Source of the DNA: Terriglobia bacterium
GTDB taxonomy: Bacteria; Acidobacteriota; Terriglobia; Bryobacterales; Bryobacteraceae
Direction: 5' to 3'
Assembly: GCA_021324185.1 (NCBI GenBank)
Contig: JAJPJN010000050.1
Location: 1-58,890, forward strand
Length of the DNA: 58,890 nt
Shown: positions 33,074 through 53,776 of the stretch, piece by piece
Layout of the letters: each line of letters begins with the position of its first letter
How positions within the stretch are numbered: position 1 is the stretch's first letter
The notes under the pieces: generated by a model
Told to the model about the DNA's origin: nothing
Seen by the model: only the letters and a program-made list of their open reading frames with translations
The model's database searches: none
Made by a program: the position numbers and the translations under genes

Positions 33074-33083
33074 TGAAATGTCA
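33074..33083. promoter_or_regulatory. Weak relative of the CTGACATGTCAG palindrome
   Basis: TGAAATGTCA differs by one base from the core TGACATGTCA of the palindromes at 39404 and 47862. It lies between the divergent TonB receptor 1 and the BNR/VPS10 gene starts. It could be a degenerate site of the same regulator or a coincidence. Confidence 0.25.
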
Positions 33084-33104
33084 AGCGCGAGAGTTGGTAG
33101 TAGA

Positions 33105-36100: not shown

Positions 36101-36230
36101 CGCGCCTCCCGAACAGACCTATCAGGTGTTTCAGGAGTATGAGCGCCGCCGCAAGGACATCGAAGCGCAATGGAAGCAGTTGCAGCCGCAGGTAGAACAA
36201 ATCGCGCATCTCACTACAGCGCAACGCTAA
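33105..36230 (+). CDS. Secreted BNR/VPS10-type beta-propeller protein (2)
   Basis: This exported protein of about 1,041 residues begins with a signal peptide (IVAMILASSSFAQ). The mature start, MRWRQVGPFRGGRAETAAGIAG, is shared with its neighbour at 36250. Many Asp-box blades follow (TTNGGASW, STDGGKNW, SRDGGQTW, STDAGETW, TRDGGKTW), then a Gly-rich GGGRGGGNAGQ insert and a C-terminal helical tail. The tail starts LDPRVHVTLADLQKQYDFAIELRDRV and looks coiled-coil. The frame is open back to 32934 over the divergent receptor gene, but the signal peptide supports ATG 33105 or 33120. It is a tandem paralog of the next gene, 19 bp apart. Its function is unknown; sortilin-type propellers bind peptides, which would suit the peptidase-rich context. 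Confidence 0.82.
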   Translation: MGALNMLHHRVRLLYARLSLGAIVAMILASSSFAQNIDPSLFNGMRWRQVGPFRGGRAETAAGIAGNPLVYYFGAVAGGVWKTTNGGASWTPITDRQGIFSIGAVTIDPTNPNVLYVGTGEPCLRNDISEGDGVYKSTDGGKNWTNIGLRDSRHIADILVDPEDPKTVFVAAVGHAFGPNEERGVFRSRDGGQTWQKILYVDDKTGATDLVMDPHNPKILFAAMYEVRRTAYSMISGGPGSGLYKSTDAGETWKHIEGHGLPGGILGRIGVAISGADSNRVYAMIEAKENALYRSDDGGQNWQMVNNEPIWVRPWYGNHVFADPKNRDLVYILDLGAMRSSDGGHSFSAMPVPHSDDHHLWIDPENPKRMIEADDGGASISQDGGVTWSPENNQPTAQFYHVATDKAFNYTIYGSQQDSGTVAIRSRTDSGSITDRDWRPVGGGESGFNWPDPRDSAIVYGGDHNGHFTRYDGHTGQVQDIAPWFGARAHPPAELKHRFQWTAPMLISPHDPGVLYIGGEVLFKSTTGGQSWTIISPDLTRNDKSKQQSSPTPLTPDNSSSEYYDTIFAISESPLQKGLIWVGSDDGLVHITRDGGKTWSRITPPQLPEWACVNIIEASPYSAGAAYLAADLHFSDDFRPMIFKTDDYGKTWKEITHGIPASDYVHSVHADPERKSLLYAGTETGIFVSFDDGENWQSLQLNLPHTPVFDTAIHANDLIAATHGRAFWVLDDITPLRQASSQVSSLSAYLYKPPSAIRVHAGGPGGGRGGGNAGQNPPAGAIIDYYLRAAPAGPVTLEIMDSTGRVLHRVTSAPAGQQAEAPTGGRARNNMENSLPAHAGMNRYVWNLRVNGPEPLPGIFIMEIRGGPIVPPGTYRVRLTVDGKQSAAPLEIRLDPRVHVTLADLQKQYDFAIELRDRVTEVHNLVLQIRQARAKLETARNGADRSRQQAIADLASKLDALEQRLTQVKSTNPSAALVYPIMLDAQYADLGNVLETADSAPPEQTYQVFQEYERRRKDIEAQWKQLQPQVEQIAHLTTAQR

Positions 36231-36249
36231 CCGGCAGAGGAGTTACATC

Positions 36250-39200
36250 GTGGTTCGTTATTCAGTTTCGCGGGCTCATACCGCTGTGCTTTTTCTTTTT
36301 TCGTGCGGATTCATCGCGTCAGCGCAGGTGGATCCCAAACTGTATCAGGCCCTGCGCTGGCGCTCCGTCGGACCGGATCGCGGCGGGCGCGTAACTACCG
36401 TAGCGGGTCTGCCGAACGATCGTCTCGTGTACTACATGGGCGCAACCGGCGGCGGTGTATGGAAGACGGTCAACGCCGGTATAACCTGGATGCCCATCTC
36501 CGACCGCTACTTCAAAACCGGTTCGGTCGGCTCGATTGCGGTTGCCCTTTCCGATCCAAACACCATCTACGTCGGCATGGGAGAAGCTTGTCTTCGCGCC
36601 AATATTTCACACGGCGATGGCGTCTACAAAACCACCGACGGTGGCCGGACCTGGCGCAACATCGGCCTGCGCGACACCAGCCAGATCGGCAAAGTATATG
36701 TCGATCCAACGGACGCCAACCTGGTCTACGTTGCGGCGATCGGCCATCCATATGGGCCAAACCAGGAACGCGGCGTGTTTCGTTCGAAAGATGGCGGCCA
36801 GACGTGGACCAAAATTCTTTTTGTGAATGAGAAAACCGGCGCTGCCGATATCGGTGCCGATCCTGCCAATCCGCGCATCATGTACGCCTCCACATGGCAA
36901 GTCCTCCGCACGCCCTGGGACATCTATGAGTTCGGACCCGGAAGCGGGATTTATAAAACCACCGATGGCGGCGATACTTGGACACTTCTGAAAAACGGCT
37001 TGCCAAAAACTCCTATGGGCAAGATTGGACTCGCGGTCTCCCCCGTCGATCCGAATCGCGTCTGGGCCACCATCGGCGGCGATGACGGCGGCATTTATCT
37101 TTCTGACGATGCCGGGCAGAATTGGAAGCTGATCAACGGCAGCTTTGAAATGCATTCGCGCCAGTACTACTATGGCCACATCTTTGCTGATCCGAAGGAG
37201 CGCAATACCGTCTACACCTTCGTCGCGAAAGATTTCTACAAATCCACGAACGCTGGAAAAACCTGGACAACCCTACAGACCCCCCACGGCGATTATCACG
37301 ACCTCTGGATCGATCCCAACGATAACCAGCGCATGGTAAACGCCAACGATGGCGGAGCCACCGTCACCTTTGATGGAGGGAAGAGTTGGAGCTCGGAAAT
37401 GAATCAACCAACCGGGCAGTTCTATACCGTTCGCGCGGATAACAACTTCCCTTACAACATCTATGGCGCGCAGCAGGACGACACGACCGTCTCCATTTCC
37501 AGTCAGGCGATCGGCGGGGCTGCCGGCCGCGGCGGCCTTACCGGCTCTGCGGATTTTACGGAAGTAGGCGGCGGGGAATCAGGATACGTCGTTCCTGATC
37601 CTAAAAATCCCGACATCATTTATGCCGGCGCATATTGGGGCTTGTTGACGCGCTATGACAAGCGCACAGGCATTACGCGCAATATCTCGGTTTGGCCCGA
37701 CATTCCCGGAGGGCGTAGCGGCGTAGATACGAAGTATCGTTTTCAGTGGACCTTCCCGATTGCCATCTCTCCCGCCGATCCGGCCGCCATCTATGTCGGC
37801 GGCAATGTCGTCTTCAAATCCATCAACCAGGGTCAAAGTTGGAAGAGCATCAGTCCCGATCTCACCAGAAACGATAAAACCCGCGAGGCCGGAGGGCGTC
37901 TCGAAGACATCTACGATACCGTCTTCACCATTGCGCCCTCACCGCTCGACAAGAACGTGATTTGGGCCGGCTCCGATGATGGACTCATCCACCTCACCCG
38001 CGATGGCGGCGCCACTTGGAGGAACGTGACTCCTCCTGCAGTGCAGCCGTGGACCAGAATAAATGTGATCGAGGCATCTTCGCACGATCCCGCAACCGCA
38101 TACGTCGCTGCCAATCGCTATCAGCTCGATGACTTCAGGCCGTATATCTATCGCACCCACGATTACGGCAAGACCTGGACGCTGGCGGTGCAGGGCATTC
38201 CGGAGGACACCTTCGCCCGTTCTGTGCGGCAAGATCCCGTGCGCTCTGATCTGCTCTACGCGGGCGCCGAGACCGGAGTCTACGTCTCGTTCGACGATGG
38301 CGATCACTGGCAGAGCCTGCAACAGAATCTGCCGGTAGTTCCCATCACCGATCTCACCATCAGGAACGGAGATCTGATCATTTCTACCCAGGGGCGCGCG
38401 TTCTGGGTTATGGATGACATCACTCCCCTCGAACAAATTAGCGGTGATACGAATGCCGCCTTGCATCTGTTCGCTCCACGCCCTGCTTATCGCGCCGGAC
38501 GCGGCCGGTCCTTTGGCGCCAGTGGAACGCTCGATCGCGTCATCGTGGATTACGAACTCGCCAGCGCGCCCGCGCCGCCCGTTACCATCGAGTTTCTCGA
38601 CGCGAACGGCAAACTGGTCAAGTCGTTTTCAAGCGTGCAAAAAGACGCGCCCAATCAGGCAACAGGCAGGCGCGGCGGAGGCGGCCGCAGTGGCGGTGCT
38701 GAAGCTGCTGTCGGTGTGCAGCCGGGGCTAAACAGATTTGCCTGGGACATGCGTTATCCCGACGCGACTGGAATTGAAAGCGGCACCTTCCTGCTCGGCG
38801 GCAACTTGCGCGGTCCGGAGGCTGCGCCCGGTAGTTATCAGGTGAGAATCACCGCCAATGGCGCCACCGCCACGCAGAAGTTTGAAATTCGAAGAGACCC
38901 GCGTGTCCCAACCACTGACTTGGATTACCGGAAGCAGTTGACCTTTCTGCTCACCGTGCGCGACCGGCTTTCAGAAACAGACGCCGCCATCAACCGCATT
39001 CAAAAAGCGCAGCGGCAGGTGAATTCTGTTTTGCAGAAGGCAGGCGCGCAAACCTCGCTGGTTGCCGAAGGCCGTAAGCTCTCTGCTGCCCTGGAATTCG
39101 AAGCGGAGCAACTTTTTCAGCCGCACTTCACCGGCTTCGACGATCAGACGCTCATCTATCCGCTGGGGCTGAACAATCGCTTTGCCGCGCTTGCAAGCTA

Positions 39201-39369
39201 CGCTCAAGGTGACTATCCGCCGACCGATCAGGAAATCGCGGTTCTCCACGAACTCTCTGCGGATATCGAGCGAATTCTGGCCAAAACCAAACAGACTCTC
39301 GAAATTGACCTTCCCGCTTTCAACAAAGACTCGGAAGCAGCCGGATTGGCCGAACCGTCCGGCCACTGA
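36250..39369 (+). CDS. Secreted BNR/VPS10-type beta-propeller protein (3)
   Basis: This 1,039-residue exported paralog of the preceding gene has a GTG start with GAGGAG about 9 nt upstream. The signal peptide is AHTAVLFLFSCGFIASAQ. The mature start LRWRSVGPDRGGRVTTVAG and the Asp-box series (TTDGGRTW, SKDGGQTW, TTDGGDTW, TRDGGATW) match gene 2. The GRRGGGGRSGG tract and the helical tail with RRDPRVPTTDLDYRKQLTFLL also correspond. The pair is a tandem duplication that has diverged. The next gene's operator palindrome starts 35 bp after its stop, so this gene ends the unit. Confidence 0.82.
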   Translation: MVRYSVSRAHTAVLFLFSCGFIASAQVDPKLYQALRWRSVGPDRGGRVTTVAGLPNDRLVYYMGATGGGVWKTVNAGITWMPISDRYFKTGSVGSIAVALSDPNTIYVGMGEACLRANISHGDGVYKTTDGGRTWRNIGLRDTSQIGKVYVDPTDANLVYVAAIGHPYGPNQERGVFRSKDGGQTWTKILFVNEKTGAADIGADPANPRIMYASTWQVLRTPWDIYEFGPGSGIYKTTDGGDTWTLLKNGLPKTPMGKIGLAVSPVDPNRVWATIGGDDGGIYLSDDAGQNWKLINGSFEMHSRQYYYGHIFADPKERNTVYTFVAKDFYKSTNAGKTWTTLQTPHGDYHDLWIDPNDNQRMVNANDGGATVTFDGGKSWSSEMNQPTGQFYTVRADNNFPYNIYGAQQDDTTVSISSQAIGGAAGRGGLTGSADFTEVGGGESGYVVPDPKNPDIIYAGAYWGLLTRYDKRTGITRNISVWPDIPGGRSGVDTKYRFQWTFPIAISPADPAAIYVGGNVVFKSINQGQSWKSISPDLTRNDKTREAGGRLEDIYDTVFTIAPSPLDKNVIWAGSDDGLIHLTRDGGATWRNVTPPAVQPWTRINVIEASSHDPATAYVAANRYQLDDFRPYIYRTHDYGKTWTLAVQGIPEDTFARSVRQDPVRSDLLYAGAETGVYVSFDDGDHWQSLQQNLPVVPITDLTIRNGDLIISTQGRAFWVMDDITPLEQISGDTNAALHLFAPRPAYRAGRGRSFGASGTLDRVIVDYELASAPAPPVTIEFLDANGKLVKSFSSVQKDAPNQATGRRGGGGRSGGAEAAVGVQPGLNRFAWDMRYPDATGIESGTFLLGGNLRGPEAAPGSYQVRITANGATATQKFEIRRDPRVPTTDLDYRKQLTFLLTVRDRLSETDAAINRIQKAQRQVNSVLQKAGAQTSLVAEGRKLSAALEFEAEQLFQPHFTGFDDQTLIYPLGLNNRFAALASYAQGDYPPTDQEIAVLHELSADIERILAKTKQTLEIDLPAFNKDSEAAGLAEPSGH

Positions 39370-39403: not shown

Positions 39404-39415
39404 CTGACATGTCAG
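39404..39415. promoter_or_regulatory. Palindromic operator CTGACATGTCAG (site 1)
   Basis: This is a perfect 12-bp palindrome 22 bp before the ATG of the PLP-enzyme/permease/GntR operon. Its left half CTGACA also resembles a -35 element. The identical 12-mer occurs at 47862-47873 just upstream of TonB receptor 2. Two identical palindromes at two promoters of one functional region suggest a shared regulator, most simply the GntR fusion encoded in this operon. Confidence 0.65.
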
Positions 39416-39437: not shown

Positions 39438-40685
39438 ATGCCCCTGAGACAGCTTGTGCCCGCCAAGGTGCGCGCCTGCTTCCCGGCGCTGCAACGGTCT
39501 GACTTCATCTTTTTTGATAACGCGGCTGGAGCGCAGATTCCGCAACAGGTGCTCGATGCCGTAACTCACCACCTGCTGGAGTGCAACGTACAACGTGGCG
39601 GCCGTTACCAAAAGAGCCGCGAGGTGGACGCCGCAATTGCACAAGCGCGAGAAAGCGTCGCGCTGCTCCTCAACGCCAATCATCCCGACGAGGTTGCCTT
39701 TGGCATGAATGCAACCTCCTTTATTCGCCTGGTTAGTTTGGCCATCGGCCTCACGCTTCGCCCGCGCAACCAGATTGTCGTCACCGACATGGATCATGAA
39801 GCGAACATTGCTGCCTGGCTGGCGCTCCAATCCAACGGCGCAATTTTCCGCTGGTGGCGCATGCGCGAAGATGGCAAATTGCACGTCGAGGACTTGGAAC
39901 CGTTGCTCGGGCCGCGCACCCGCGTCGTGGCTCTCCCGGCGGCATCCAACGCCATTGGTTCCATCGTCGACGTCGCGAGTGTATCGAAAGCCGTTCACCG
40001 CTTCGGTGGCGAAGTGTTCGTCGACTGCGTTCACTACGCGCCGCACGGGATCATTGATGTTCAGGCGCTCGGCTGTGATTACCTGGTGTGCTCGGGATAC
40101 AAGATCTTTTCGCCCCACATGGGATTTCTTTGGGGCCGGCGCGAGCTGCTCAAAAAACTACCGGCCTTCCGGGAAGACTTTATCCCGGATGAACCTCCCG
40201 GAAAAATCGAGGCGGGAACTTTCATCTACGAGAATGTTGCCGGCATGGATGCCGCAGTGCGCTACATCGAGCAACTGGGTCGAGACCTAACCGAAGAAAG
40301 CGCCAACGGCTCGCGACGCAACAACCTCCTCGCCGGCATGAGCGCCATTCGAAATTATGAGGAGATGCTCTCCCTCGACTTCTTGCGCCTCTTGCGCGAC
40401 TCAGGCGCGCAGGTCTATGGAATAACGGACGAACACCGGCTCAGTGAGCGCGTCCCCACGTTTTTGTTCAATTTGCCGGGTGTATCTCCAGAGCGATTGA
40501 CCGATACGATGGCCGCTGCTGGAATCGGAGTTCGTGACGGGCACATGTACTCACCGAGGCTCATGCAGCGCCTCGGCCTGCCTTATCCTGAGGGCGCCGT
40601 TCGCGCATCGCTCGTGCACTACAACACTAAGGAAGAGATCGCCCGGTTCGGTCAGGTGCTGGCGGCCATAACTCCGGATGCCTGA
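39438..40685 (+). CDS. Class V PLP enzyme, cysteine-desulfurase-like (SufS-like subgroup)
   Basis: This 415-residue cytoplasmic fold-type I PLP enzyme matches the cysteine-desulfurase-like branch of class V by TDMDHEANIAAWLAL, PAASNAIGSIVD, EVFVDCVHYAPHG (Asp196, His199) and the PLP lysine in CSGYKIFSPH (Lys222). True cysteine desulfurases have a mobile Cys loop; I do not see a convincing equivalent, so the substrate may be another amino acid. The permease ATG overlaps its stop by 8 bp, a coupled arrangement. A palindromic operator lies just upstream. It is likely the catabolic enzyme of a permease-linked amino-acid utilisation unit. Confidence 0.8.
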   Translation: MPLRQLVPAKVRACFPALQRSDFIFFDNAAGAQIPQQVLDAVTHHLLECNVQRGGRYQKSREVDAAIAQARESVALLLNANHPDEVAFGMNATSFIRLVSLAIGLTLRPRNQIVVTDMDHEANIAAWLALQSNGAIFRWWRMREDGKLHVEDLEPLLGPRTRVVALPAASNAIGSIVDVASVSKAVHRFGGEVFVDCVHYAPHGIIDVQALGCDYLVCSGYKIFSPHMGFLWGRRELLKKLPAFREDFIPDEPPGKIEAGTFIYENVAGMDAAVRYIEQLGRDLTEESANGSRRNNLLAGMSAIRNYEEMLSLDFLRLLRDSGAQVYGITDEHRLSERVPTFLFNLPGVSPERLTDTMAAAGIGVRDGHMYSPRLMQRLGLPYPEGAVRASLVHYNTKEEIARFGQVLAAITPDA

Positions 40686-42081
40686 CCAATCTCCCGCCGT
40701 ATCGCTTTCGCCTCCCGATGCACTGCGCCGCAACTTGACGCAGCGGCAGCTCAGTATGCTCGCCATCGGCGGCGCCATAGGCGTCGGCCTGTTTCTAGGC
40801 AGCAGCGTCACCATCGGACTGGCTGGGCCCGCGGTTTTGCTGTCGCATGTATTTTGCGCCATCATCGCCATGATTGTGGCCTATGCGCTGGCGGAAATGG
40901 CCGTCGTACATCCCGTGGCCGGATCATTCGGCGTCTATGCCGAAAAATATCTCGGAAGCTGGTCTGGCTTTGCCGTGCGGGCCACGTACGCAGTCGTCCA
41001 GATCATTGCCATCGGTGCTGAAGTTACCGCTGTCGCCATCTACTTTTCGTTCTGGTTCCCCAATGTTCCCCAGTGGATCTGGGTCGTCGCCGTTTCCATC
41101 GGCCTAGTCGCCATCAATACCATGCAGGTGGGCCGCTTCGGCGAATTTGAATATTGGTTTGCATTGATAAAAGTACTCGCCATCATTGCATTTATTCTCA
41201 TCGGCGCCGCCCTCATATTCGGCTTCGGATTCCGGCACGCCATCGCCCTTTCCAACTTGGTCGCGCACGGCGGTTTTTTCCCAAAGGGGTGGAAAGGAGT
41301 CTGGCTTGCGCTCAGCCTCACATTGACCAGTTACATGGGCGTCGAAGTCGTCGCAGTCACTGCAGGCGAAGCGGAGCAGCCGGAAAAATCCATTCCGCGG
41401 GCCATGCGCACCATCGTCTTTCGACTCATTCTTTTCTACTGGCTCGCCATGACCGTCATTCTGGCCATCCGGCCCTGGAATCAAGCTGGAAACGCCTTGA
41501 CCAGCAGCCCCTTCGTGCAGGCCTTTGCCACCGCCGGTATCCCTTACGCCGCCACCGTCATGAACCTGGTCGTGATCACGGCGGCATTATCGAGTTCCAA
41601 TACGGACTTGTATCTCACTACCCGAATGCTCTTCTCGCTCGCCCGCGGCTCTTATCTGCCGGATTCGCTCGGCCGCCTGAATCGCAACGGAGTTCCTGGC
41701 CCCGCTCTGGCAGTCTCATCAGCCGGAATGCTGGCCGCCATTCTGCTGGCTATTTTCTCTCCGGGCAGGGCATTTCTATTGCTATACGGCGTCGCTGTCG
41801 CTGGTATGTTCTTTGTGTGGTTGGTTATTCTGGCTACGCATTTGCGTTTCCGGCGCGCGCTCGGCAGCGCCGGCGTTGCGGCACTTCCCATGCGGTTGCC
41901 GTTTTTCCCCGTATCTACTCTACTCGGAGGATTTGCGCTCCTCGCAATTGCTCTCGGCACCTTCTATGTCGATGGCCTGCAGTACACGATTCCCGCCTTT
42001 CTCCCCTTTCTGCTGGTGATCTCCATTTTGTACTTCAAAACGAGAAAACGCCTTCGCGCCGCCCGCGCGCACGCCGCCTGA
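40678..42081 (+). CDS. Amino-acid permease of the APC superfamily
   Basis: This 467-residue inner-membrane transporter has about 12 hydrophobic segments. The N-terminus carries the APC signature LSMLAIGGAIGVGLFLGSS. VAGSFGVYAEKYLG and SLTLTSYMGVEVVAVTAGEAEQPEKSIPRAM are typical of the amino-acid/GABA/aromatic permease group. It overlaps the PLP enzyme gene by 8 bp, so production is coupled. It precedes the GntR-fusion gene by 60 bp. It most likely brings the substrate of this operon into the cytoplasm after outer-membrane passage. Which amino acid is carried cannot be read. Confidence 0.88.
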   Translation: MPDQSPAVSLSPPDALRRNLTQRQLSMLAIGGAIGVGLFLGSSVTIGLAGPAVLLSHVFCAIIAMIVAYALAEMAVVHPVAGSFGVYAEKYLGSWSGFAVRATYAVVQIIAIGAEVTAVAIYFSFWFPNVPQWIWVVAVSIGLVAINTMQVGRFGEFEYWFALIKVLAIIAFILIGAALIFGFGFRHAIALSNLVAHGGFFPKGWKGVWLALSLTLTSYMGVEVVAVTAGEAEQPEKSIPRAMRTIVFRLILFYWLAMTVILAIRPWNQAGNALTSSPFVQAFATAGIPYAATVMNLVVITAALSSSNTDLYLTTRMLFSLARGSYLPDSLGRLNRNGVPGPALAVSSAGMLAAILLAIFSPGRAFLLLYGVAVAGMFFVWLVILATHLRFRRALGSAGVAALPMRLPFFPVSTLLGGFALLAIALGTFYVDGLQYTIPAFLPFLLVISILYFKTRKRLRAARAHAA

Positions 42082-42141: not shown

Positions 42142-43413
42142 GTGCTCCTCGAAATAGCGAAACGACCAGCGTCTGAGCCCCGCTCGGGCCAGCCGCAGCT
42201 CAACCGGATCGCATTCGACCGCATCAAACAGGACATTATTCGCTGCGCTCTGCAGCCCGGCAAGCGTGTCACCGAGGCGCAGTTGTCCGCCCGCTACGCG
42301 ATGGGCAAAGCGCCTATCCGCGCCGCGCTCCGGGGGCTATGCCAGGCCGGTTTCGTGCGCGCCATCCCGCGCCGGGGATATGTCATCATCCCGGTCACCG
42401 TGCGTGACGTTCAGGACATCACGCAAGTAAGACTGCTGCTCGAACCGACTGCTGCGCGGCTTGCCGCCGGTAGAATTGCAGCCGAGCAACTCGCCCGCCT
42501 AAGCGCTTTGTGCCAGGTCCGCTACACCCCCGGTGAGCGCCCGCGCGAAGCGGCAGTTTCCGCCCACCGGGAGTTTCACCTGCTGATTGCCAGCGCATCC
42601 GGCAACGAAAAGCTGGCCGAACTCCTGTCAGGCTTGTACGACGAAGTCGAGCGGCTCATCCATCTTTGCCTCTCCCGTGTCATTCCCGATGAGATGCTGG
42701 GCTACCGCCCTTTGGTCGAAGCGCTTGCTACCGGCGATGGCGAAGCTGCTTCCCGGCTCATGATCGAGCAGATTGAGTTAGGGCGGAAGCGAATCATGGA
42801 TGCCTTGCTCTCTACCTCGCCCGATGCCGAAATCGACATCAGCGACGGCTCGAATAAAAAGGAATTGAGCCTGCCGGAATTCGTCCACCAGCTCAACGAA
42901 ATCCTCGCCCTGAGTCCCGGAAACGAAGTGCCGTTTCGTGTCGCCCGGCGGCTTCCCCGCCTCTTGCGGACCGCCGATCTGCTCACCCCCGAGCAGCGTG
43001 AATCCAGTTCGCATTCTTACCGCAGGCACACGCTGTTTGAGGATCCCGACGGGCGCTACACGATTGAAGCGCGCGTCTGGCAGGCCGCACAGAGCACGCC
43101 GCTATACAGCATTCCATTCTGGTCGGTGATTGGGATTTACGAGGGCGAATTGCGCGAAAGCTGTTACCGGCGCCTGGAACGCCCGGACGGCGCCATTCGC
43201 TTCATCCCCAACGGTGTAACACACCATCGCTCCGGACAGGTGACCTATATCGATCCGGCGGGCAGCACCTTACACAGGTTCGACAATCCAACTTCCGAAT
43301 CCACTATTTCGATACATGTCTTTGGTACCGATACACGCAGCTCGGAAAGACTAACGGATTGTTACCTGCCGGAAGATTACCCCGGCGCTGCCGCCGACCT
43401 GCCAGGATTGTAA
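42142..43413 (+). CDS. GntR/FCD regulator fused to a degenerate cysteine-dioxygenase-type cupin
   Basis: This 423-residue protein has three parts. Residues 20-82 form a GntR winged helix (VTEAQLSARYAMGKAPIRAALRG, RAIPRRGYVI). Residues 90-215 form a helical FCD-type domain in which most usual metal ligands appear replaced (for example YRPLVEAL where EHxxIxxAL is normal). Residues 250-400 resemble a cysteine-dioxygenase-type cupin: YTIEARVWQ, VIGIYEGELRES, GSTLHRFDNPT, SIHVFG. The HxH iron motif that should precede WSVIGIYEG reads YSI (322-324), while His378 and His392 remain. A sensory rather than catalytic cupin is likely. The start is a GTG. It probably controls its own operon and others through CTGACATGTCAG. 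Confidence 0.75.
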   Translation: MLLEIAKRPASEPRSGQPQLNRIAFDRIKQDIIRCALQPGKRVTEAQLSARYAMGKAPIRAALRGLCQAGFVRAIPRRGYVIIPVTVRDVQDITQVRLLLEPTAARLAAGRIAAEQLARLSALCQVRYTPGERPREAAVSAHREFHLLIASASGNEKLAELLSGLYDEVERLIHLCLSRVIPDEMLGYRPLVEALATGDGEAASRLMIEQIELGRKRIMDALLSTSPDAEIDISDGSNKKELSLPEFVHQLNEILALSPGNEVPFRVARRLPRLLRTADLLTPEQRESSSHSYRRHTLFEDPDGRYTIEARVWQAAQSTPLYSIPFWSVIGIYEGELRESCYRRLERPDGAIRFIPNGVTHHRSGQVTYIDPAGSTLHRFDNPTSESTISIHVFGTDTRSSERLTDCYLPEDYPGAAADLPGL

Positions 43414-43536: not shown

Positions 43537-44535
43537 TTACTCGTATCGCTGGCTGCTGCTGCCCGAAAGATCTGCGCTTTTTGTGGGGTCAGGCTTTCGA
43601 GCCGGCGCGCTTCCGGCTTCGGGCTTCCTGCTTCGATCTACCTCCCCCTTCATCTCCCCATACAGAACCCGGGCATTGTCTTTAATAGTCGCGTGAAAAT
43701 TAGGAAATTGCCGGAAATCAGAGAATGCTTGCATATGCAGATTCCGGGCTACCTCGTCCCAACTCGCTCCTGCTTTAACTTGAGTAGAGATCTGGTCGCG
43801 CAGCGCCGCTAAATAATCGTGGAATCGTTGCAGATCCTGTCGCGAGCCCACTTCGAAATGCCCGGGCACAAAAGTCTGTGCCGGGGTCGCCAGCAGTTGC
43901 TCCAGAATCTGAATCCAGTTCAGTACGCGGCCGTGGTCCATCGCAGGCGAACTGTGATTCAAAAACAGATCGCCCGTCGCGATGACTCGCTGTTCCGGAA
44001 ACTCCACAATCAGATCGCCCATCGTATGCGCCGGCCCGCGATACTCGATGTGCACCGGATGATTATCAATGTAGATGTCAGCTTTGTCTGTGGTTATTGT
44101 GGCAACGCGGTAAGCGACAGAGTCGAGCGAAGCGAGCGCTTCGCCGGTCAGGCGCTCTTTTAGCCGGGGCAGATCGTTTTGTAAAAAAGCGAGTGTCGCG
44201 CTGCGAGTGAACGCGGTCGTAATGATTTCCGCCTGGGGTCCCACGATTCCATTCGCAGCCTGATGATCGCGATGATAATGCGTGTTGATGATGTAGCGCA
44301 CCGGCAAAGGTGAAATCGCGCGAATCGCCCGAAGCAACTTTTCGCCTGCCGTACCGTCAAAACCCGTGTCGACAACCAGAATGCATTCCTTGCCGGCAAG
44401 AAACACTGAGTTCGAACTCGCAGCATTGTCCGAGATATACGCAAACAGCCCGTTACCCAAACTCTGAGTTTTCGGGCCCGCAGCAGTTATCGTGCTTAAT
44501 GCCCCAACCAGAAGGACAGCGCCGCAGAATCTCAT
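43537..44535 (-). CDS. Exported metallo-beta-lactamase-fold hydrolase
   Basis: This 332-residue exported protein has a signal peptide (AVLLVGALSTITAAG) and a full MBL metal site: His86, His88, Asp90, His91 (THYHRDH), His170 (GPAHTMGD), Asp189 (ATGDLF) and His226 (VPGHFEVG). The general form resembles periplasmic MBL hydrolases of the SoxH/quinoprotein-relay type; the substrate is unknown. Its ATG overlaps the TonB receptor stop by one base (TGATG), so it is coupled to the receptor and probably processes its cargo in the periplasm. The last ~30 residues (Lys/Pro/Ala-rich) are unusual; residues 301-318 are encoded by a dispersed repeat. Confidence 0.85.
   Translation of the reverse strand: MRFCGAVLLVGALSTITAAGPKTQSLGNGLFAYISDNAASSNSVFLAGKECILVVDTGFDGTAGEKLLRAIRAISPLPVRYIINTHYHRDHQAANGIVGPQAEIITTAFTRSATLAFLQNDLPRLKERLTGEALASLDSVAYRVATITTDKADIYIDNHPVHIEYRGPAHTMGDLIVEFPEQRVIATGDLFLNHSSPAMDHGRVLNWIQILEQLLATPAQTFVPGHFEVGSRQDLQRFHDYLAALRDQISTQVKAGASWDEVARNLHMQAFSDFRQFPNFHATIKDNARVLYGEMKGEVDRSRKPEAGSAPARKPDPTKSADLSGSSSQRYE
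43583..43635 (+). repeat. Dispersed repeat copy B inside the 3-prime end of the MBL gene
   Basis: This begins GTGGGGTCAGGCTTTCGAGCC, with 18 of the first 21 bases like copy A at 307, and ends in the identical CTTCCTGCTTCG. It lies antisense within the MBL gene and encodes residues 301-318 of that protein. Confidence 0.55.
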
Positions 44536-47500
44536 CAGAACATCAACTTTAACGCCAATTGGATGAGCCGGGGGCCGCCAGAGCCCAACCCCACATTGTT
44601 CTGCGCCACATCCGGAGTCTCATAAACACCACCGAAATTCGGCGCCGACTCCACGTTGTTTGGTATCGCAAAATTCGGGTGGTTGAACAGGTTGAAGAAC
44701 TCGGCCCTAAACTGCACGGTTGTCCGTTCGCCGAAATGAGTGTTCTTGATGGCCGAAAAATCCACATCGTGAAAGCCGGGACCGGTCACAATATTCCGGC
44801 CCGCGTTTCCAAAGGTCAAAATGGTGTTGGGAACAAAGGCAGCCGTATTGAACCATCGTTCCGCCGTGTGCGGCCCGGTATTCGGGTTCGTAATTACGTT
44901 AGGCCGGTCGTTTCCTTCACCCGTCCGGCTGTTATTCAGCCCGGTCAAAACGGAGAACGGCTGCCCGGTCTGCAACGTAACAATCCCCGCTACCTCCCAG
45001 CCGTTGACCAACGCAGCCGCGGGTCTCGATAAAGACTGCTTTACCGGCAGTTGATAAATGAAGGAAGCGCTGAAGCGATGCCGGATGTCGAAGTCCGATA
45101 GCCCTCGCTCCCCCGCCAGAAGGTTGAAATTGTTCTGCGGCAGTACCGTAGTTCCGTTCGCGCCCGAGCCATAGAAATCCGAAGCCTCGTCGATTGATTT
45201 TGAAAACGTATAGTTGGCCTGAAATGAGACGCCCTGAGCCAGTTGCTTCGAAAGCGTAGCCTGCAAGCTGTTGTATTCCGAGTTCACGTTCGTCACAGCG
45301 GTCAGGATCTTCGGAAAGCCGAAATACTGGTTCCGCACAATGCCCGGAAGGTTGCCGATATTGCTCTCCAGAATCGGAATGAGCGGGGCTGGGACGCCGA
45401 TCATCGCCAGTCGTTGGCTGAGAGACGGCGTCAACGTATTCAGTTGCGCCTGCGTAATGTCGGGTTGGTTCGCGTCGGTGAAGCGAGTGAGATGGGTTCC
45501 ATGCGTTCCGACGTAACCCACCGTGGCCAGCATGTTCCACGGCAGCTCTTGCTGAATATTGAAGTTGTAGTCCTGCGCGTACGGTGTCCGGATTTTCGGA
45601 TTCACCGCCGTGAGCACCGGAAAGGCAGTAGGCCCGAATGCATTGGGCCAACCGATAGAAGGCGCCGAATTGTAGTAATCGGGTAGATACGGCGGGTTGA
45701 GCGCAACATTGCCGGGTATGTTCCCGATAATCGTGTCATAGAAAATGCCATAGCCGATGCGGAACACAGTGTGATATCGCTGCCCCAGGCTATATGCGAT
45801 ACCCGCTCGCGGCGCAAAGTTCAAATGATTGCCTTGATAAATGCTGGCCTTACTTTGTAAGAGAACGCCGGATGCTTGTAGAGCTGCTACATCGGTCTGA
45901 CTCGCCGTCGGCGGGAAATAGGTTTGAAAGTCTTGCGGAAAGAAGTTACTCAACAGCCCGTTTACATCGTGCAGTACGGTATTCAACTCATAACGCAAGC
46001 CATAATTGATGACCAGATTCCGATGCCACTTGAACGTATCTTGCGCGAAAAAGTTGAAACTCGATGTCCTTAGGCCGCGTTCAGAGTCCCCCACAAATTG
46101 CAATGAACTCTCAGGCAAGCCCTCCATAAAATCCACCAGCGCGTTCGCGATCCCCTGCGGATTCCGCGCTCCATCGAATACCAGCTCGCCGCTGAACGCA
46201 AGATCGTATATTCGATTGATCTGCAGCCGGCGGATATCGGTCCCAAACTTCCAGGAGTGGCGCCCGGCTGTGTAGGAAAACTGATCTACATATTGAAATG
46301 TATTGTTCGTCGAACCGGACGGGTTGTTATCGCTCCCGCCCAGATTGGAAACGGCGCTGCCGCCCGACACCAGCCCGCCCGAAAAAGTAATGAACGGAAT
46401 GTTTCCCAGTCCATTCGGTGTGCCTGCGGCATAGCCTGTGTTGATGCCGTATGTGGCTGCCTGCGGCCCCTCCTGGTTAGAGCTTAAGTAATGCTCGCGA
46501 TTGAACCCGAAACGAGCCTCGTGTAACGCATGCGGGCCGAACGACTTTATATAGTTAACCGAGATCAGAATACCCGACACCGGGCTGATAATTCCGTATC
46601 CCGGAATCGAGGTGGAACTCTGGCCCGGTGTAAATGGATAGAAAATGGTCTGGCTTGATTCGCTATAGCGGAGAGAAAGAATGTCGCTGTTGCTGAAATG
46701 GTGATCAATCTTAATCAGCCCCTGATCCGTGTGCTGCGTCAGATTCGGGCTCGAAAAGAAATTGCCCAAGGCGCTGTTCAGGTTCGGCGCGGGATAAAGC
46801 TGGATGAGCCGCGCACTGACCGGATTCACCGGCGCCGCGACAGTTTGGCCGTTAGCAGTCGGAAAGATGCCTTGCCGTTCGGCTAATGTCGGAACGTTGG
46901 TGATCAGCGTAATACCGGCTACGCGCCGGAACCCCTCGTAATTCACAAAGAAGAACGTCCGGTCCTTTTTGATTGGGCCGCCCAGTGTCCCGCCGAATTG
47001 ATTCAGCCGCAACTCCGGCGTGGCAAATCCGGCCGGATCGAAAAAATTCCTGGCATCCAGCGCATCGTTTCGAAAGAACTCGTAAAGCGATCCGTGCAGA
47101 TCGTTGGTGCCGGAGCGCGTTATCAGATTGACGATTGCACCGCTGTTGCGGCCGTACTCTGCCGAAAACGTGTTGGTCTGCACATTGAACTCTTCAATCG
47201 AATCGATGGAGGGCTGAATCGCAACCGCGCCCGCAACGTAGTTATTGTTGTCCACCCCATCGATCAAAAAATTGTTAGAACTGGACCGTTGCCCGTTCGA
47301 CGAAAAATTCGAAACGCCGCCTTCGCCGCCCTGCTGGCCGCCGCCTCCGCCGGAAGAAGCCACGCCTGGTTGTATCCGCGCCAGTTGCATGAAATCGCGT
47401 CCGTTCAGGGGCAGTTCCACCACGTTCCGGTGATTCACCACAGCCCCGAGTTGGGTGGTCTCCGTATTCACGTCCTCCACAGCGCCTTGAACCGTCACCT

Positions 47501-47846
47501 GTTGGCTCTGCGCGCCGACATTCATTGTGATGTCAACCGTGCGTACCTGGTCCACCGCCACCGTGACGTTCGCAACCGCTGTTTGAAACCCGGTCTTCTC
47601 CGTTCTCAATTTGTAGGCTCCGTAGGGCAGCGCCGCAAGCGTATATTCGCCACTCGCGCCCGTCGATATCTGCCGTTCCAGCGCCGTCGCTGTATTTCGA
47701 ACCGTGACCGTAACTCCGCTCATCAGCGCGCCGCTCTGGTCGCGAACCGTTCCCGAGATCATCCCGGTCACAGTCTGCCCCGCCGTCACCCGAACCAGCA
47801 TCATCGCTATCGCAAACCCAAATCCGAAACTCCTGCGCATCAGCAT
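44535..47846 (-). CDS. Oar-like TonB-dependent outer-membrane receptor with carboxypeptidase-regulatory domain (2)
   Basis: This 1,103-residue outer-membrane receptor has a signal peptide (FGFAIAMMLVRVTAGQ) and a CarboxypepD-regulatory domain (GMISGTVRDQSGALMSGVTVTV). The plug follows (NVVELPLNGRDFMQLARIQPG, YGRNSGAIVNLITRSGTNDL), then a barrel ending LALKLMF. It differs clearly from receptor 1. It is coupled to the MBL hydrolase by a one-base overlap. A promoter-like pair and the palindrome CTGACATGTCAG lie upstream, so it seems to be repressed by the same factor as the PLP enzyme/permease operon. The long aromatic-catabolism operon starts divergently 207 bp away, which suggests that its cargo feeds that pathway. 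Confidence 0.92.
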   Translation of the reverse strand: MLMRRSFGFGFAIAMMLVRVTAGQTVTGMISGTVRDQSGALMSGVTVTVRNTATALERQISTGASGEYTLAALPYGAYKLRTEKTGFQTAVANVTVAVDQVRTVDITMNVGAQSQQVTVQGAVEDVNTETTQLGAVVNHRNVVELPLNGRDFMQLARIQPGVASSGGGGGQQGGEGGVSNFSSNGQRSSSNNFLIDGVDNNNYVAGAVAIQPSIDSIEEFNVQTNTFSAEYGRNSGAIVNLITRSGTNDLHGSLYEFFRNDALDARNFFDPAGFATPELRLNQFGGTLGGPIKKDRTFFFVNYEGFRRVAGITLITNVPTLAERQGIFPTANGQTVAAPVNPVSARLIQLYPAPNLNSALGNFFSSPNLTQHTDQGLIKIDHHFSNSDILSLRYSESSQTIFYPFTPGQSSTSIPGYGIISPVSGILISVNYIKSFGPHALHEARFGFNREHYLSSNQEGPQAATYGINTGYAAGTPNGLGNIPFITFSGGLVSGGSAVSNLGGSDNNPSGSTNNTFQYVDQFSYTAGRHSWKFGTDIRRLQINRIYDLAFSGELVFDGARNPQGIANALVDFMEGLPESSLQFVGDSERGLRTSSFNFFAQDTFKWHRNLVINYGLRYELNTVLHDVNGLLSNFFPQDFQTYFPPTASQTDVAALQASGVLLQSKASIYQGNHLNFAPRAGIAYSLGQRYHTVFRIGYGIFYDTIIGNIPGNVALNPPYLPDYYNSAPSIGWPNAFGPTAFPVLTAVNPKIRTPYAQDYNFNIQQELPWNMLATVGYVGTHGTHLTRFTDANQPDITQAQLNTLTPSLSQRLAMIGVPAPLIPILESNIGNLPGIVRNQYFGFPKILTAVTNVNSEYNSLQATLSKQLAQGVSFQANYTFSKSIDEASDFYGSGANGTTVLPQNNFNLLAGERGLSDFDIRHRFSASFIYQLPVKQSLSRPAAALVNGWEVAGIVTLQTGQPFSVLTGLNNSRTGEGNDRPNVITNPNTGPHTAERWFNTAAFVPNTILTFGNAGRNIVTGPGFHDVDFSAIKNTHFGERTTVQFRAEFFNLFNHPNFAIPNNVESAPNFGGVYETPDVAQNNVGLGSGGPRLIQLALKLMF

Positions 47847-47861: not shown

Positions 47862-47873
47862 CTGACATGTCAG
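47862..47873. promoter_or_regulatory. Palindromic operator CTGACATGTCAG (site 2)
   Basis: This perfect palindrome is identical to site 1. It is 15 bp before the TonB receptor 2 ATG and downstream of its likely transcription start, a typical roadblock or repressor position. Further TGACA/GACAT half-sites follow directly (47874-47884), so more than one dimer could bind. Confidence 0.7.
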
Positions 47874-48053: not shown

Positions 48054-49223
48054 ATGCTTACTACCAGCGAAGCCGCTGTGTTGACGGACGAACGAATCGC
48101 GGAGCTGCGGCAGCAGTTCCCCATTCTCGAAAACAGTACCTATTTATACAACTGCTCGCAAGGCGCGCTCTCGAAAGCCGTACAGCGCGGCATGCAGGAA
48201 TATGCCGAGAGCTGGCGCACTTCGGCTGCTCCCTGGGACGAGTGGATGCTCAAGTGCGATGCCATCCGCGCCGAATTCGCCCGCTTCATTAATGCCCATC
48301 CTGACGAAATCGCCATTCTGACCAGTGCCTCGGCAGGCATAAACCCCATCGCCAACGCGCTTCATTTCGATGGCCGGAACAAGGTCATCATGGGCGAATT
48401 CGAGTTTCCCACCATGGGCCAGATCTGGCTGGCGCAACAGGCGCGCGGCGCAGATGTGCGCTTTCTTCCGGCACAGAAAAATCGCATCCCGGCCGAGGCC
48501 TACGCAAAAGCGATCGACGAAAAGACAATCATCGTCCCCCTGACCCACGTCTCTTTCGTCAACGGATTTCGGTCCGATGTTGCCGCGATTACCCGTCTCG
48601 CGCACGAACGCGGAGCGCTCGTCTTCCTGGATGGTTACCAGGATTGCGGCACGCGCCCGTTGGACATAAAAGCGCTGGGTGTAGATTTCTACGTCACCGG
48701 CACGCTGAAATATCTGCTTGGGCCGCCCGGGGTCGCGTTCCTGTATGTGCGGCGCGGGTTATCCGAGGCATTAACGCCGCCCATCACCAGTTGGTTGGCC
48801 CAGCGCGAGGCCTTCTCGTTTAATCCGAAGTCTCTCGATCCGGCGCCGAACGCCCGCAGATTCGAAGGCGGCTCCCCTCCCATCCCCAGTATTTACGCGG
48901 CACTTCCCGCGCTGCAGTTGCTGCGTGATGTCGGCCTTGCTAACGTCGCAGCCCAAATCAAGACCTTGTCGTCTGCCTTCATCGCTGGTGCGCGCGATCT
49001 CGGCATTGAGATCAAAACGCCGCTCGATTCCGAAGGACCGCTCGTCGTGCTGCGGACAAACGACCCGGCCCGCCTCATCACCCGCTTCACGGATCGCCGC
49101 ATCATCATCTCGGCGCGCCACGATGGAGTCCGCTTCGCGTTTCACTTTTACAACACCATGGATGACGTGGCACGGGCGCTGAGCGCATTGAAAGATAATC
49201 TCGATCTCATGGTTCGGAGCTAA
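48054..49223 (+). CDS. Class V PLP enzyme, kynureninase-like
   Basis: This 389-residue cytoplasmic fold-type I PLP enzyme shows LTHVSFVNGFRSDVAAI, GALVFLDGYQDCGTRPLDI (Asp193, Gln196) and DFYVTGTLKYLLGPPG (PLP lysine 219). This resembles kynureninase and related class V lyases, but it is only distantly similar to the cysteine-desulfurase-like protein at 39.4 kb. In a kynurenine-to-anthranilate route it would release anthranilate and alanine; that is inferred from the neighbours. It is the first gene of a tightly packed + operon, with the cyclase starting 8 bp later, and is divergent from TonB receptor 2. Confidence 0.75.
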   Translation: MLTTSEAAVLTDERIAELRQQFPILENSTYLYNCSQGALSKAVQRGMQEYAESWRTSAAPWDEWMLKCDAIRAEFARFINAHPDEIAILTSASAGINPIANALHFDGRNKVIMGEFEFPTMGQIWLAQQARGADVRFLPAQKNRIPAEAYAKAIDEKTIIVPLTHVSFVNGFRSDVAAITRLAHERGALVFLDGYQDCGTRPLDIKALGVDFYVTGTLKYLLGPPGVAFLYVRRGLSEALTPPITSWLAQREAFSFNPKSLDPAPNARRFEGGSPPIPSIYAALPALQLLRDVGLANVAAQIKTLSSAFIAGARDLGIEIKTPLDSEGPLVVLRTNDPARLITRFTDRRIIISARHDGVRFAFHFYNTMDDVARALSALKDNLDLMVRS

Positions 49224-49231
49224 GCCCGGTA

Positions 49232-50017
49232 ATGGCCGAAAATATACTCGCACAGTTCGCCAAAGCCTTAACCGGCGGTACAGTGCGCGTGGTGGATTTA
49301 ACTCAACCGCTCGAGCCGGCCACTCCGGTTATTCAACTGCCCGAGCAGTTTGGCAAATCCTGGCCGTTTCGCCTCGAAGAGATTTCCCGCTACGATCAGC
49401 GCGGCCCCGCCTGGTATTGGAACAATTTTGCTTGCGGCGAGCACACCGGCACCCACTTTGATGCGCCTGTCCATTGGGTCACCGGCAAAGATTATCCAAA
49501 CAACGCTACCGACACCATCCCGGCCGAAAAGTTCATTGCTCCCGCTTGCGTCATCGACGTCTCGCACCAAGCCTCGAATGATCCAGATTTTCTGTTGACT
49601 CGCGAGCACGTCGAACAATGGGAGCGCGAACACGGCAGGATTGAGGCAGGCTCGTGGGTGCTGATGCGGACCGATTGGTCGAAACGCCGCGATCCGCAAG
49701 CCTTTCTGAACATCGGCCAGGACGGAGCGCATGTGCCCGGCCCTCATCCGGAACTCGTCCCGTTCCTTGCCAAAGAGCGCGACATCATCGGCTGGGGCTC
49801 GGAAGGCGTCGGCACAGACGCCGGCCAGGCGTTTCGCTTCGATCCGCCGTTTCCGTGCCACAGCATCATGCATGGCAGCAATAAGTTCGGACTCGCTAGT
49901 TTGACAAACCTCGATCAGCTTCCGCCCCAGGGTGCACTGCTCATCACGCCACCGCTCAAAATAGTAAGTGGGTCGGGTAGTCCGTGCCGGGTGCTGGCTC
50001 TGGTTTCCTCAGCCTGA
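49232..50017 (+). CDS. Cyclase-family metal hydrolase (kynurenine-formamidase/isatin-hydrolase-like)
   Basis: This 261-residue cytoplasmic hydrolase has the family metal motif HTGTHFDAPVHW, the usual start VDLTQPL and a C-terminal ITPPLKIVSGSGSPCRV block. Related enzymes hydrolyse N-formylkynurenine, isatin or cyclic amides. It lies 8 bp after the kynureninase-like gene and 13 bp before the oxidoreductase alpha gene, so it is part of the operon. Together with the PLP enzyme it would make anthranilate from N-formylkynurenine, but the substrate is not proven. It is longer than, and distinct from, the cyclase at 24.5 kb. Confidence 0.82.
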   Translation: MAENILAQFAKALTGGTVRVVDLTQPLEPATPVIQLPEQFGKSWPFRLEEISRYDQRGPAWYWNNFACGEHTGTHFDAPVHWVTGKDYPNNATDTIPAEKFIAPACVIDVSHQASNDPDFLLTREHVEQWEREHGRIEAGSWVLMRTDWSKRRDPQAFLNIGQDGAHVPGPHPELVPFLAKERDIIGWGSEGVGTDAGQAFRFDPPFPCHSIMHGSNKFGLASLTNLDQLPPQGALLITPPLKIVSGSGSPCRVLALVSSA

Positions 50018-50030
50018 AAGTTGGAAGTCA

Positions 50031-52190: not shown

Positions 52191-52209
52191 CCGGCCAGAG
52201 GAAACTGCA

Positions 52210-53754
52210 ATGGATGCGAATGTGACGACACAGCCGGCATCCGTTACATCCCCGGACACAAAAGCAATTTCGATTGCCATCCTTGCCATGGGCGGCGAAG
52301 GCGGCGGCGTATTAGCCGACTGGCTCGTCGACCTCGCCGAACACGCCGGCTACTTCGCGCAAAGCACCTCTGTCCCCGGCGTCGCCCAACGTACCGGCGC
52401 CACCATCTACTACGTCGAGTTGTTTCCGGAGACCGAATCGCAGCGCCGCGGCCGCCAGCCGGTTTTAGGATTAATGCCCGTCCCGGGCGAAGTGGATGTC
52501 GTCATCGCCTCCGAGTTGATGGAGGCCGGTCGCGCCATTCAGCGCGGTTTAGTCACGCCCGATCGCACCGTTCTCATCGCCTCCGAACACCGCGTTTACT
52601 CCATCTCCGAGCGCAGCGCCATGGCTGACGGCCGTGTCGATTCTCAAAAGCTGCTCGAAGCGTCCCAAGCCGCCGCCAGGCAATTCGTGCATGGCGACTT
52701 CGCGCGCCTGGCAGACGAGCACGGCAGCGTCATAAGCGCATCTCTGTTCGGCGCTCTCGCTGCGCGTGGCGGGCTGCCCTTCACGCGCGAACAGTTCGTA
52801 GACGCAATCCGTCGCGGCGGCGTCGGTGTGGAATCCAGCTTGGCCGCCTTCGAAGCAGGATACGCAGCCGCGAGCCAGCCCGCGCCAATCAAGCCCCCGC
52901 CCGTTTCATCACCCGCCGCATCCAACCGCACCGGCCGGCTCGCGAATCTGATCACCCGCGTAACCAGCGGCTTCCACGCCGCTAGTCACGACGTGATCCT
53001 TGCCGGAGTTCACCGCCTCGTCGACTTTCAGGACGAGCGCTACGCGCGCGAATACCTCGACTGGCTTGCTCCAATTCGTGATGCCGATGCGCAACATGGT
53101 CCCGGCGCCTTTCTGCTCCTGACCGAAACCGCGCGCTATCTTGCCCTCTGGATGGCGTACGAAGATGCCGTGCGCGTAGCGGATCTCAAGATTCGCCGGG
53201 CGCGTTTCGAAAGAGTGCGCCGCGAAGTGAAGGCCCGGCCCGGTCAAATCGTCCGGATTAACGAATTCCTGCACCCCGGCATCGAAGAGATTACCGACAT
53301 CCTGCCCGCCGGCCTCAGCCGCTTCCTCCTTCGCACCAAACCCTTGAAGCGCCTGCTTGAGAAATTTACCAGCAAGGGACGAATCGTCGAGACAACTTCG
53401 CTCGCCGGATTCCTCATGCTGTACACCCTAGCCTCCATGCGGCCTCTGCGCCGCCGCTCGCTTCGCTTCGAAAGAGAACGCCGGTTCATTCAGCAGTGGC
53501 TCGCTCAGCTTCCCTCGCTCGCAGCCGAAGATTACGCTCTGGCGGTCGAAGCGGCGGAATGCCCGCGCCTCATCAAAGGTTATGGAGAAACTCACGCTCG
53601 CGGCATGCAGAGCTACCTTGCCGTGATGTCTGCCATCCCGCGCCTGCGTGGCAAGCCCGGTGCTGCGGAAGCGCTACGGCGTTTGCGTGAGGCGGCCCTA
53701 AAAGACGAAAGCGGCAGGATCCTCGAGCAAACACTTCAGGAGGTAAACGCATGA
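52210..53754 (+). CDS. iorB: Indolepyruvate oxidoreductase beta subunit family protein
   Basis: This 514-residue partner of the preceding subunit has an N-terminal POR gamma-type domain of about 200 residues (AILAMGGEGGGVLADWLVD, STSVPGVAQRTGATIYYVE). A Pro-rich linker (PAPIKPPPVSSP) leads to a long helical C-terminal domain, as in the large IorB forms of aromatic degraders. ATG 52210 with AGAGGAA upstream is the start; the open frame back to 51880 overlaps iorA and is rejected. It lies within the operon, 22 bp before the flavin monooxygenase gene. Confidence 0.8.
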   Translation: MDANVTTQPASVTSPDTKAISIAILAMGGEGGGVLADWLVDLAEHAGYFAQSTSVPGVAQRTGATIYYVELFPETESQRRGRQPVLGLMPVPGEVDVVIASELMEAGRAIQRGLVTPDRTVLIASEHRVYSISERSAMADGRVDSQKLLEASQAAARQFVHGDFARLADEHGSVISASLFGALAARGGLPFTREQFVDAIRRGGVGVESSLAAFEAGYAAASQPAPIKPPPVSSPAASNRTGRLANLITRVTSGFHAASHDVILAGVHRLVDFQDERYAREYLDWLAPIRDADAQHGPGAFLLLTETARYLALWMAYEDAVRVADLKIRRARFERVRREVKARPGQIVRINEFLHPGIEEITDILPAGLSRFLLRTKPLKRLLEKFTSKGRIVETTSLAGFLMLYTLASMRPLRRRSLRFERERRFIQQWLAQLPSLAAEDYALAVEAAECPRLIKGYGETHARGMQSYLAVMSAIPRLRGKPGAAEALRRLREAALKDESGRILEQTLQEVNA

Positions 53755-53776
53755 GGTCAGGAGGAGTCCGGCCAGC

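Follow-up and report, generated by a model that had tools for sequence, protein, structure and literature searches.

The stretch of Terriglobia bacterium DNA analyzed here, called the window below, is 58,890 nucleotides long (contig JAJPJN010000050.1). The regulator under study is encoded by the third and last gene of a tight operon with a PLP enzyme and a permease. The features of the window are listed in Table 1.

Table 1. Positions of genes, domains, motifs and candidate sites in the window
Feature	Position	Strand	Basis or remark
Kynurenine formamidase-like gene (the other cyclase)	24546-25193		PDB E 8.9e-36
Tryptophan 2,3-dioxygenase-like gene	28348-29085		PDB E 9.7e-23; PF03301 above cut-off
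Palindrome CTGACATGTCAG, candidate operator	39404..39415	.	22 nt before the ATG of the operon
Class-V PLP enzyme, operon gene 1	39438..40685	+	TIGR01976 'cysteine desulfurase-like', above cut-off
APC-type amino-acid permease, operon gene 2	40678..42081	+	Family search
GntR-FCD-CDO/3MDO-like fusion regulator	42142..43413	+	Single open frame, 423 aa, GTG start
GntR winged helix-turn-helix domain, residues 24-82	42211..42387	+	Pfam PF00392, E 8e-11
FCD domain, residues 92-211	42415..42774	+	Pfam PF07729, E 3.3e-21
Thiol-dioxygenase (3MDO-like) cupin domain, residues 244-411	42871..43374	+	phmmer 6xb9, profile search, shuffle control
YSI replacing the iron-binding HxH (Y322, I324)	43105..43113	+	Alignment
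VTHHR	43216..43230	+	Invariant in all four fusions
Retained third iron-ligand histidine, His378	43273..43275	+	Alignment
S-H-F (S390, H392, F394) replacing the catalytic S-H-Y	43309..43323	+	Alignment
Metallo-beta-lactamase-fold hydrolase, after the transporter gene	43537..44535	-	Pfam PF00753
TonB-dependent-type outer-membrane protein (transporter), candidate target	44535..47846	-	PF25183 736 bits, PF13620, PF07715
Second CTGACATGTCAG	47862..47873	.	15 nt before the transporter gene (-), 180 nt before the kynureninase-like gene (+)
Kynureninase-like class-V PLP enzyme, candidate target	48054..49223	+	Best PDB match kynureninase 1qz9, E 8.2e-28, residues 11-384
Isatin hydrolase-like enzyme, candidate target	49232..50017	+	PDB 5nmp E 2.7e-105; PF04199
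Indolepyruvate ferredoxin oxidoreductase-like genes	49968-53754		Under NCBIfam cut-off
Salicylyl-CoA 5-hydroxylase/oxidoreductase-like gene (PRK08255)	53777-56064		Two overlapping frames

Genes at the locus

The PDB kin of the PLP enzyme at 39438..40685 were aminotransferase-like proteins and cysteine desulfurases. In an alignment of the window and L092 enzymes, the lysine was found to be kept (CSGYK), and the loop DGHMYSPRL contained no cysteine. We take this loop to match the one on which SufS carries its catalytic cysteine. The initial annotation had placed a cysteine-desulfurase-like gene beside the regulator, a description that agrees with the TIGR01976 name and the PDB kin and does not extend to the SufS-type loop cysteine.

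The outer-membrane protein is made up of a carboxypeptidase-regulatory-like domain, a plug and a beta-barrel. In NCBIfam, the kynureninase-like enzyme at 48054..49223 scored higher for SufS (124.6 bits, cut-off 475.1) than for kynureninase (86.3 bits, cut-off 246.4), both under the cut-off. Kynurenine formamidase was rejected as the identity of the gene at 49232-50017, which matched that family only weakly in NCBIfam and found isatin hydrolase in the PDB search. The two frames of the PRK08255-like gene cover model positions 1-324 and 303-762, an apparent frameshift or assembly error, and an SDR gene and an enoyl-CoA hydratase gene lie downstream. The salicylyl-CoA hydroxylase/oxidoreductase family includes 2-aminobenzoyl-CoA monooxygenase/reductase. 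From chemistry only, a route could be drawn for 48054-57719 in which isatin would be opened to isatinate, a 2-oxo acid, and the oxidoreductase could convert isatinate to 2-aminobenzoyl-CoA as the substrate for the flavoenzyme.

Catabolic genes of the tryptophan/kynurenine and isatin/aminobenzoyl-CoA types were seen scattered over positions 24546-57719. Two consecutive Sortilin-Vps10/BNR-repeat proteins (1098 and 1039 aa) are encoded at 32934-39369 and end 68 nt before the operon of the regulator.

Domain make-up and metal sites of the regulator

The frame, strand and position of the gene were confirmed. Pfam identified the two N-terminal domains, with 41.9 bits for PF00392 (cut-off 27) and 76.4 bits for PF07729 (cut-off 24.3). 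The DNA-binding domain is GntR and not XRE. Neither the whole protein nor its last 192 residues alone matched CDO_I or a cupin in Pfam. The CDO_I model is weak for this branch, because an intact fusion from another genome (P0003, also matched by GntR and FCD) scored 22.6 bits against a cut-off of 23 and the 3MDO-like L012 scored 22 bits.

The C-terminal domain was placed by other searches. With phmmer against PDB sequences, residues 244-411 matched the Azotobacter 3-mercaptopropionate dioxygenase (3MDO) 6xb9 (E 3.1e-12 for the whole protein, 7.5e-13 for the domain), followed by 4qma and the Pseudomonas 3MDO 3uss/4wvz. A profile built from the window protein and its relative L002 alone returned the same four PDB chains (6xb9, E 5.5e-14), and a profile built from all four known fusions also reached CDO type 1 chains, with E from 9.7e-5. 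Scored with a profile built from 11 3MDO-like rows that are not fusions, the window protein reached 91.9 bits, against at most 1.1 bits for 200 shuffles of the domain. A comparison of the domain to six standalone relatives with hhalign gave a probability of 99.3. By these sequence comparisons, homology of the C-terminal domain to the thiol dioxygenases is secure, though Pfam is silent. The fusion of a GntR regulator to a dioxygenase-type cupin, first read by eye, was thus borne out by Pfam, phmmer, the profiles and the shuffle control. The cysteine-dioxygenase type reported with it needs one correction: by sequence, the closest solved structures are 3MDO, of the Gln type, rather than CDO. Predicted structures had a mean pLDDT of 54.8 with a four-row input and 40.5 with a two-row input, too poor for fold comparison, and so the cupin pocket was read from the alignment.

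The dioxygenase-domain alignment consisted of 58 rows, with duplicate loci excluded. At the columns of Av3MDO His90, His92 and His142, 55 of the 58 rows read HHH, and the truncated L030 had two histidines and a gap. The HxH pair was absent from two rows only, the window protein (YIH; Y322, I324 and H378) and L002 (YTH). The motif itself reads YSI (Y322-S-I324) in the window protein, as initially annotated, and YNT in L002, the 82% identical orthologue. The placement of HxH is not in doubt because the flanks TP, W and GxYEGE align gap-free. A sequencing or assembly error as the origin of the loss was ruled out, since L002 comes from another genome and has the same loss. The iron ligands, all thought to be lost at first, are lost at two of the three positions, and the third, His378, is kept.

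The catalytic Ser-His-Tyr (SHY) motif of MDO, described in excerpts of PMC10966181, is replaced by S390, H392 and F394. The column of its tyrosine, Tyr159, holds Tyr in 48 of the 58 rows and Phe in the window protein and L002 alone; the eight other rows, which are divergent or truncated, hold Thr (4), Leu (3) or a gap (1). At the column of Av Gln63, 36 rows have Arg and 16 have Gln, with Arg in the CDO-type rows. The window protein (Arg295) and L002 have Arg here, and both intact fusions have Gln. This residue, in Av numbering, separates the Gln-type from the Arg-type thiol dioxygenases, the Arg of the latter being numbered 61 (PMC8050391, in the part available). The carboxylate-binding Arg168 of 3MDO looked kept in the pairwise phmmer alignment and was rejected as evidence, as it is not conserved in both the window protein and L002.

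The metal-binding histidines 134, 174 and 196 of TM0439 (PMC6608401, excerpt) were the reference positions for the FCD domain. In an alignment to 3fms, they correspond to H146, Y188 and Q210 of the window protein, and the Asp130 position is H142. L002 has the same residues as the window protein, and the intact fusions have His, His and Glu. According to the same excerpt (PMC6608401), the three-His site is present in the majority of FCD domains. It is not complete in the window protein, whose membership of the FCD subfamily stands because the site is common and not defining. Judged from the alignments, both metal sites of the regulator are cut to one histidine of three. The earlier impression of an FCD domain without metal ligands is right for Y188 and Q210 and wrong for H146.

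Some features would suit a cupin that still binds metal through H378, H361, H362 and H392, and that acts as a sensor of metal, oxygen or a thiol or retains some of its chemistry. These four histidines are invariant across all four fusions, and both degenerate members have Tyr in place of the first ligand. The second ligand position, however, holds Ile or Thr, neither of which is an iron ligand, and the SHY tyrosine is Phe. Also, H361 and H362 were not recruited after the ligand loss because they are found in the intact fusions as well. We consider such a rearranged metal site quite improbable. Within VTHHR, THH was absent from every non-fusion row of the 58, and HHR was also seen in L038.

Relatives, intact sister fusions and selection

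The contig scan yielded a single full-length relative, L002, from an Acidobacteriaceae MAG (82% identity), with the same gene order of PLP enzyme, permease and regulator. L003 and L004 matched residues 20-234 only. L055, from the genome G756, is contained in L002 as its reverse complement, so the two were counted as one genome. A match to the dioxygenase domain was found in 36 of 396 genomes of the phylum and 8 of 399 of the class, own genome included. The only match in the own genome was the window locus itself; CDO_I, a weak model for this branch, found nothing there above its cut-off. Each further sample of genomes contained two with the full fusion, out of 17 for the genus, 237 for the family, 257 for the order (at E 1e-20) and 89 for the family of G398; these samples overlap, and the counts are not additive. 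Other frames matching the dioxygenase domain were L013, L019 and L021 (283-294 aa) and the long frames L029, L050, L025, L023 and L065; neither GntR nor FCD was seen in the latter five. Among plasmids, no full fusion was found, with no record of at least 80% query coverage among those matching P0003 (1170) and P0001 (990). No relative was confirmed among 257 and 88 pattern matches in viral contigs.

Among the matching genomes of the class, two of another family, G398 and G566, were found to carry the full fusion in 416 aa (P0003 and P0004). Both proteins keep HDH, the third His and SHY. The window protein and the G398 fusion are identical at 190 of 411 aligned positions (46%). The gene neighbors at the intact-fusion loci differ from those in the window. 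Conserved linkage is not claimed: P0003 and P0004 each have a neighboring outer-membrane gene of the same type as the window transporter gene, but in those genomes the window transporter finds its best matches elsewhere. In G566, the kynureninase-like enzyme, the PLP enzyme and the permease have homologues next to one another (56, 63 and 65% identity). This PLP-enzyme/permease module has a plain GntR-FCD gene nearby on contig C29, and the intact fusion is apart from it on C111. Module and plain regulator are found at L092:4096-4863 and 8022-12277, and the regulator has D, H, H and H at the metal positions by eye.

A maximum-likelihood tree was built from 53 rows, leaving L030 and L062-L065 out of the 58. 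The four fusion dioxygenase domains formed one clade (91/98), with standalone Streptomyces and Streptantibioticus plasmid enzymes as its sister (88/93), and the wider group included Av and Pa 3MDO (88/84); all three supports are under the starred level of the tree tool. The branch to the window protein and L002 is long (1.22). Most simply, one clade for the four domains suggests that the fusion came first and that the ligands were lost later, on the branch to the window protein and L002. Homologs with a restored HxH and dioxygenase activity had been named beforehand as evidence against a sensor; the first half, a restored HxH, was found in the same fusion (P0003 and P0004). These proteins show the order of events rather than refute the sensor reading.

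In Streptomyces sp. SAT1 (L069:3857-5586), a gene of the cysteine dioxygenase family follows a LysR gene and overlaps one assigned to a putative sulfate exporter family. From this locus, the closest standalone relatives may act in sulfur metabolism.

Selection was estimated from the window protein and L002. Over the whole protein, dN/dS was 0.063 (bootstrap 0.035-0.096). Within the dioxygenase domain (0.085), the cupin core had a value of 0.040 and the less constrained helical start one of 0.182. These estimates are rough because dS has reached saturation (between 1.2 and 2.5 depending on the part, and infinite in the FCD domain and the tail), but the permease (0.069) and the PLP enzyme (0.066) gave similar values. 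The FCD domain was the best conserved part (88% identity, dN 0.070), and the cupin core had 84% identity and a dN of 0.100. The frame is open, and its length is equal in both species. The dioxygenase domain is under purifying selection, with no visible decay.

A cupin that is merely drifting as a decaying pseudo-domain is highly improbable on these data. The lost ligands and the long branch (1.22) would fit such decay, but the dN/dS of 0.085 for the domain and 0.040 for the cupin core, on saturated dS, and the open frame of equal length speak against it. Another possible explanation is that the FCD domain stays the effector domain and the cupin is a structural or dimerizing appendage that tolerates the loss of its iron site. 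The FCD domain is the effector domain in the characterized NanR and HypR (PMC8012715 and PMC6608401, in excerpts), and here it is better conserved than any other part. However, it too lost two of its three metal histidines, and the cupin core is about equally constrained. We regard an appendage role as rather unlikely. The conversion of an enzyme fold into a sensor, as first suggested, is in keeping with the lost ligands and the constrained domain, with the qualification that a single iron ligand and a single metal histidine of the FCD domain are retained.

Candidate operator, signal and proposed function

Only two copies of CTGACATGTCAG exist in the own genome (4,703,675 bases, 184 contigs), both intergenic and flanking the regulator. 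It was absent from 16 other genomes of the genus, several of them incomplete, and from the intact-fusion loci. None was found in G756, the genome of the 82% orthologue, which is 78% complete and in which the operon promoter lies off its contig. The significance of the repeat was estimated with simulated windows, for a palindrome spotted by eye beforehand and a hand-chosen gene list. A repeated perfect 12-bp palindrome was found anywhere in 231 of 700 simulated windows (91 of 300 in a first run), with both copies intergenic in 3 of 700, and with both at most 120 nt upstream of genes in none of 700. A repeated palindrome itself is common by chance, and its placement alone is unusual. There was no sigma-70-like promoter at either CTGACATGTCAG site. 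Exact FadR-type sites, TNGTNNNACNA, were found seven times in the window and never in the palindrome-bearing intergenic stretches. From its sequence and position, CTGACATGTCAG is a candidate operator of the fusion regulator. Just upstream of the outer-membrane gene beside each intact fusion, we observed TGTCAGTGACA (L040:9563 and L041:8004), which has TGTCA/TGACA half-sites in common with CTGACATGTCAG in a different order.

The window protein was compared to four known systems. It resembles 3MDO (PDB 6xb9 and 3uss) over about 160 homologous residues, has the same motif order and retains both the third iron His and the first two residues of SHY, and differs in its fusion to GntR/FCD, in the loss of two iron ligands and the SHY Tyr, and in Arg at the Gln63 position. 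With the FCD-type GntR regulators (FadR subfamily; NanR, TM0439, HypR and CsiR) it shares the order of GntR and FCD and the adjacent catabolic and transport genes, but it has an extra C-terminal cupin of about 170-190 residues and H, Y and Q at the FCD metal site. The XRE-cupin factors of Pseudomonas (PsdR, PauR and ErfA) likewise join a DNA-binding domain to a C-terminal sensing cupin and locally repress metabolic genes next to them (PMC7901475, excerpt), whereas the window protein belongs to another DNA-binding family, has an additional FCD domain and takes its cupin from a thiol dioxygenase. The G398 and G566 fusions have the full architecture, 46% identity and a place in the same domain-tree clade, but their HDH and SHY are complete, Gln is at the Gln63 position and the neighbors are others. 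In the XRE-cupin repressors, as excerpts of PMC7901475 describe, the cupin senses a precursor metabolite of the neighboring pathway and DNA is then released. Such a repressor is the nearest functional model of the window regulator.

We propose that the regulator is a local, metabolite-responsive GntR/FCD repressor that binds CTGACATGTCAG, and that its non-catalytic, 3MDO-derived cupin senses a carboxylate or amino acid; we give this reading a probability of about one half. The regulator would dimerize and bind both copies of CTGACATGTCAG, the one ahead of the enzyme-permease operon to which it belongs and the one ahead of the transporter gene, and perhaps would act also on the kynureninase-like/isatin-hydrolase operon. 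Sensing would have to be done by a metal-independent pocket because both metal sites are degraded. In the NanR FCD domain, a carboxylate ligand is held by Zn (PMC8012715, in part). In the window protein, a small carboxylate or amino acid in the metal-free cupin pocket could release or re-set the regulator, and Arg295, at the column of the carboxylate-binding Arg of CDO, is a possible carboxylate anchor.

The likeliest signal would be an indolic or tryptophan-catabolism metabolite (tryptophan, kynurenine, isatinate or anthranilate) or the substrate of the permease. An indolic or tryptophan-pathway carboxylate fits the neighborhood better than a sulfur compound does. A sensor of a sulfur amino acid or thiol, which the initial annotation had put forward, could draw on the thiol-dioxygenase ancestry, on the overlap of the Streptomyces relative with a putative sulfate exporter family gene, and on the cysteine desulfurase-like family as the nearest named one of the class-V enzyme. 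Yet that enzyme lacks the SufS-type loop cysteine, and thiol binding in 3MDO goes through iron (PMC8050391, excerpt). The identifiable neighbors in the scan are tryptophan dioxygenase, kynurenine formamidase, kynureninase-like, isatin hydrolase and aminobenzoyl-CoA-type genes. Sulfur sensing is not favored because the wider locus is one of tryptophan/kynurenine/isatin catabolism, and it appears unlikely. Among the ligands suggested at the start, kynurenine and anthranilate now look better, and cysteine and taurine less so.

The intact and degenerate proteins could also be two states of one fusion. The intact form may oxidize thiols and read thiol or O2 by turnover, and the metal-free form may sense an indolic or tryptophan-pathway carboxylate via the Arg at the CDO position. 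We regard this extension as less likely than not.

Literature searches, judged by title and start of abstract, found no description of a GntR-FCD-CDO regulator, in agreement with the initial annotation, and no regulator of a tryptophan/indole-type catabolic locus in Acidobacteriota was found among the best 10 of 59 matches. Cupin sensors on regulators are already known (PMC7901475, excerpt). What is new is that two genomes from a different family carry the same full-length fusion with all three histidines of the iron site in place. To our knowledge, a catalytic ancestor is seldom at hand in the same architecture as a cupin-sensor regulator. Since both versions of the fusion are available, one with the iron site and one lacking it, close homologues allow a comparison of the order of events, the change of ligand and the loss of catalysis. 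If the two-state reading is true, the conversion of an enzyme to a transcriptional sensor would have been caught in stages open to reconstruction and testing. For a tryptophan/indole-type catabolic locus in Acidobacteriota, the window would also supply both a regulator and its candidate operator.
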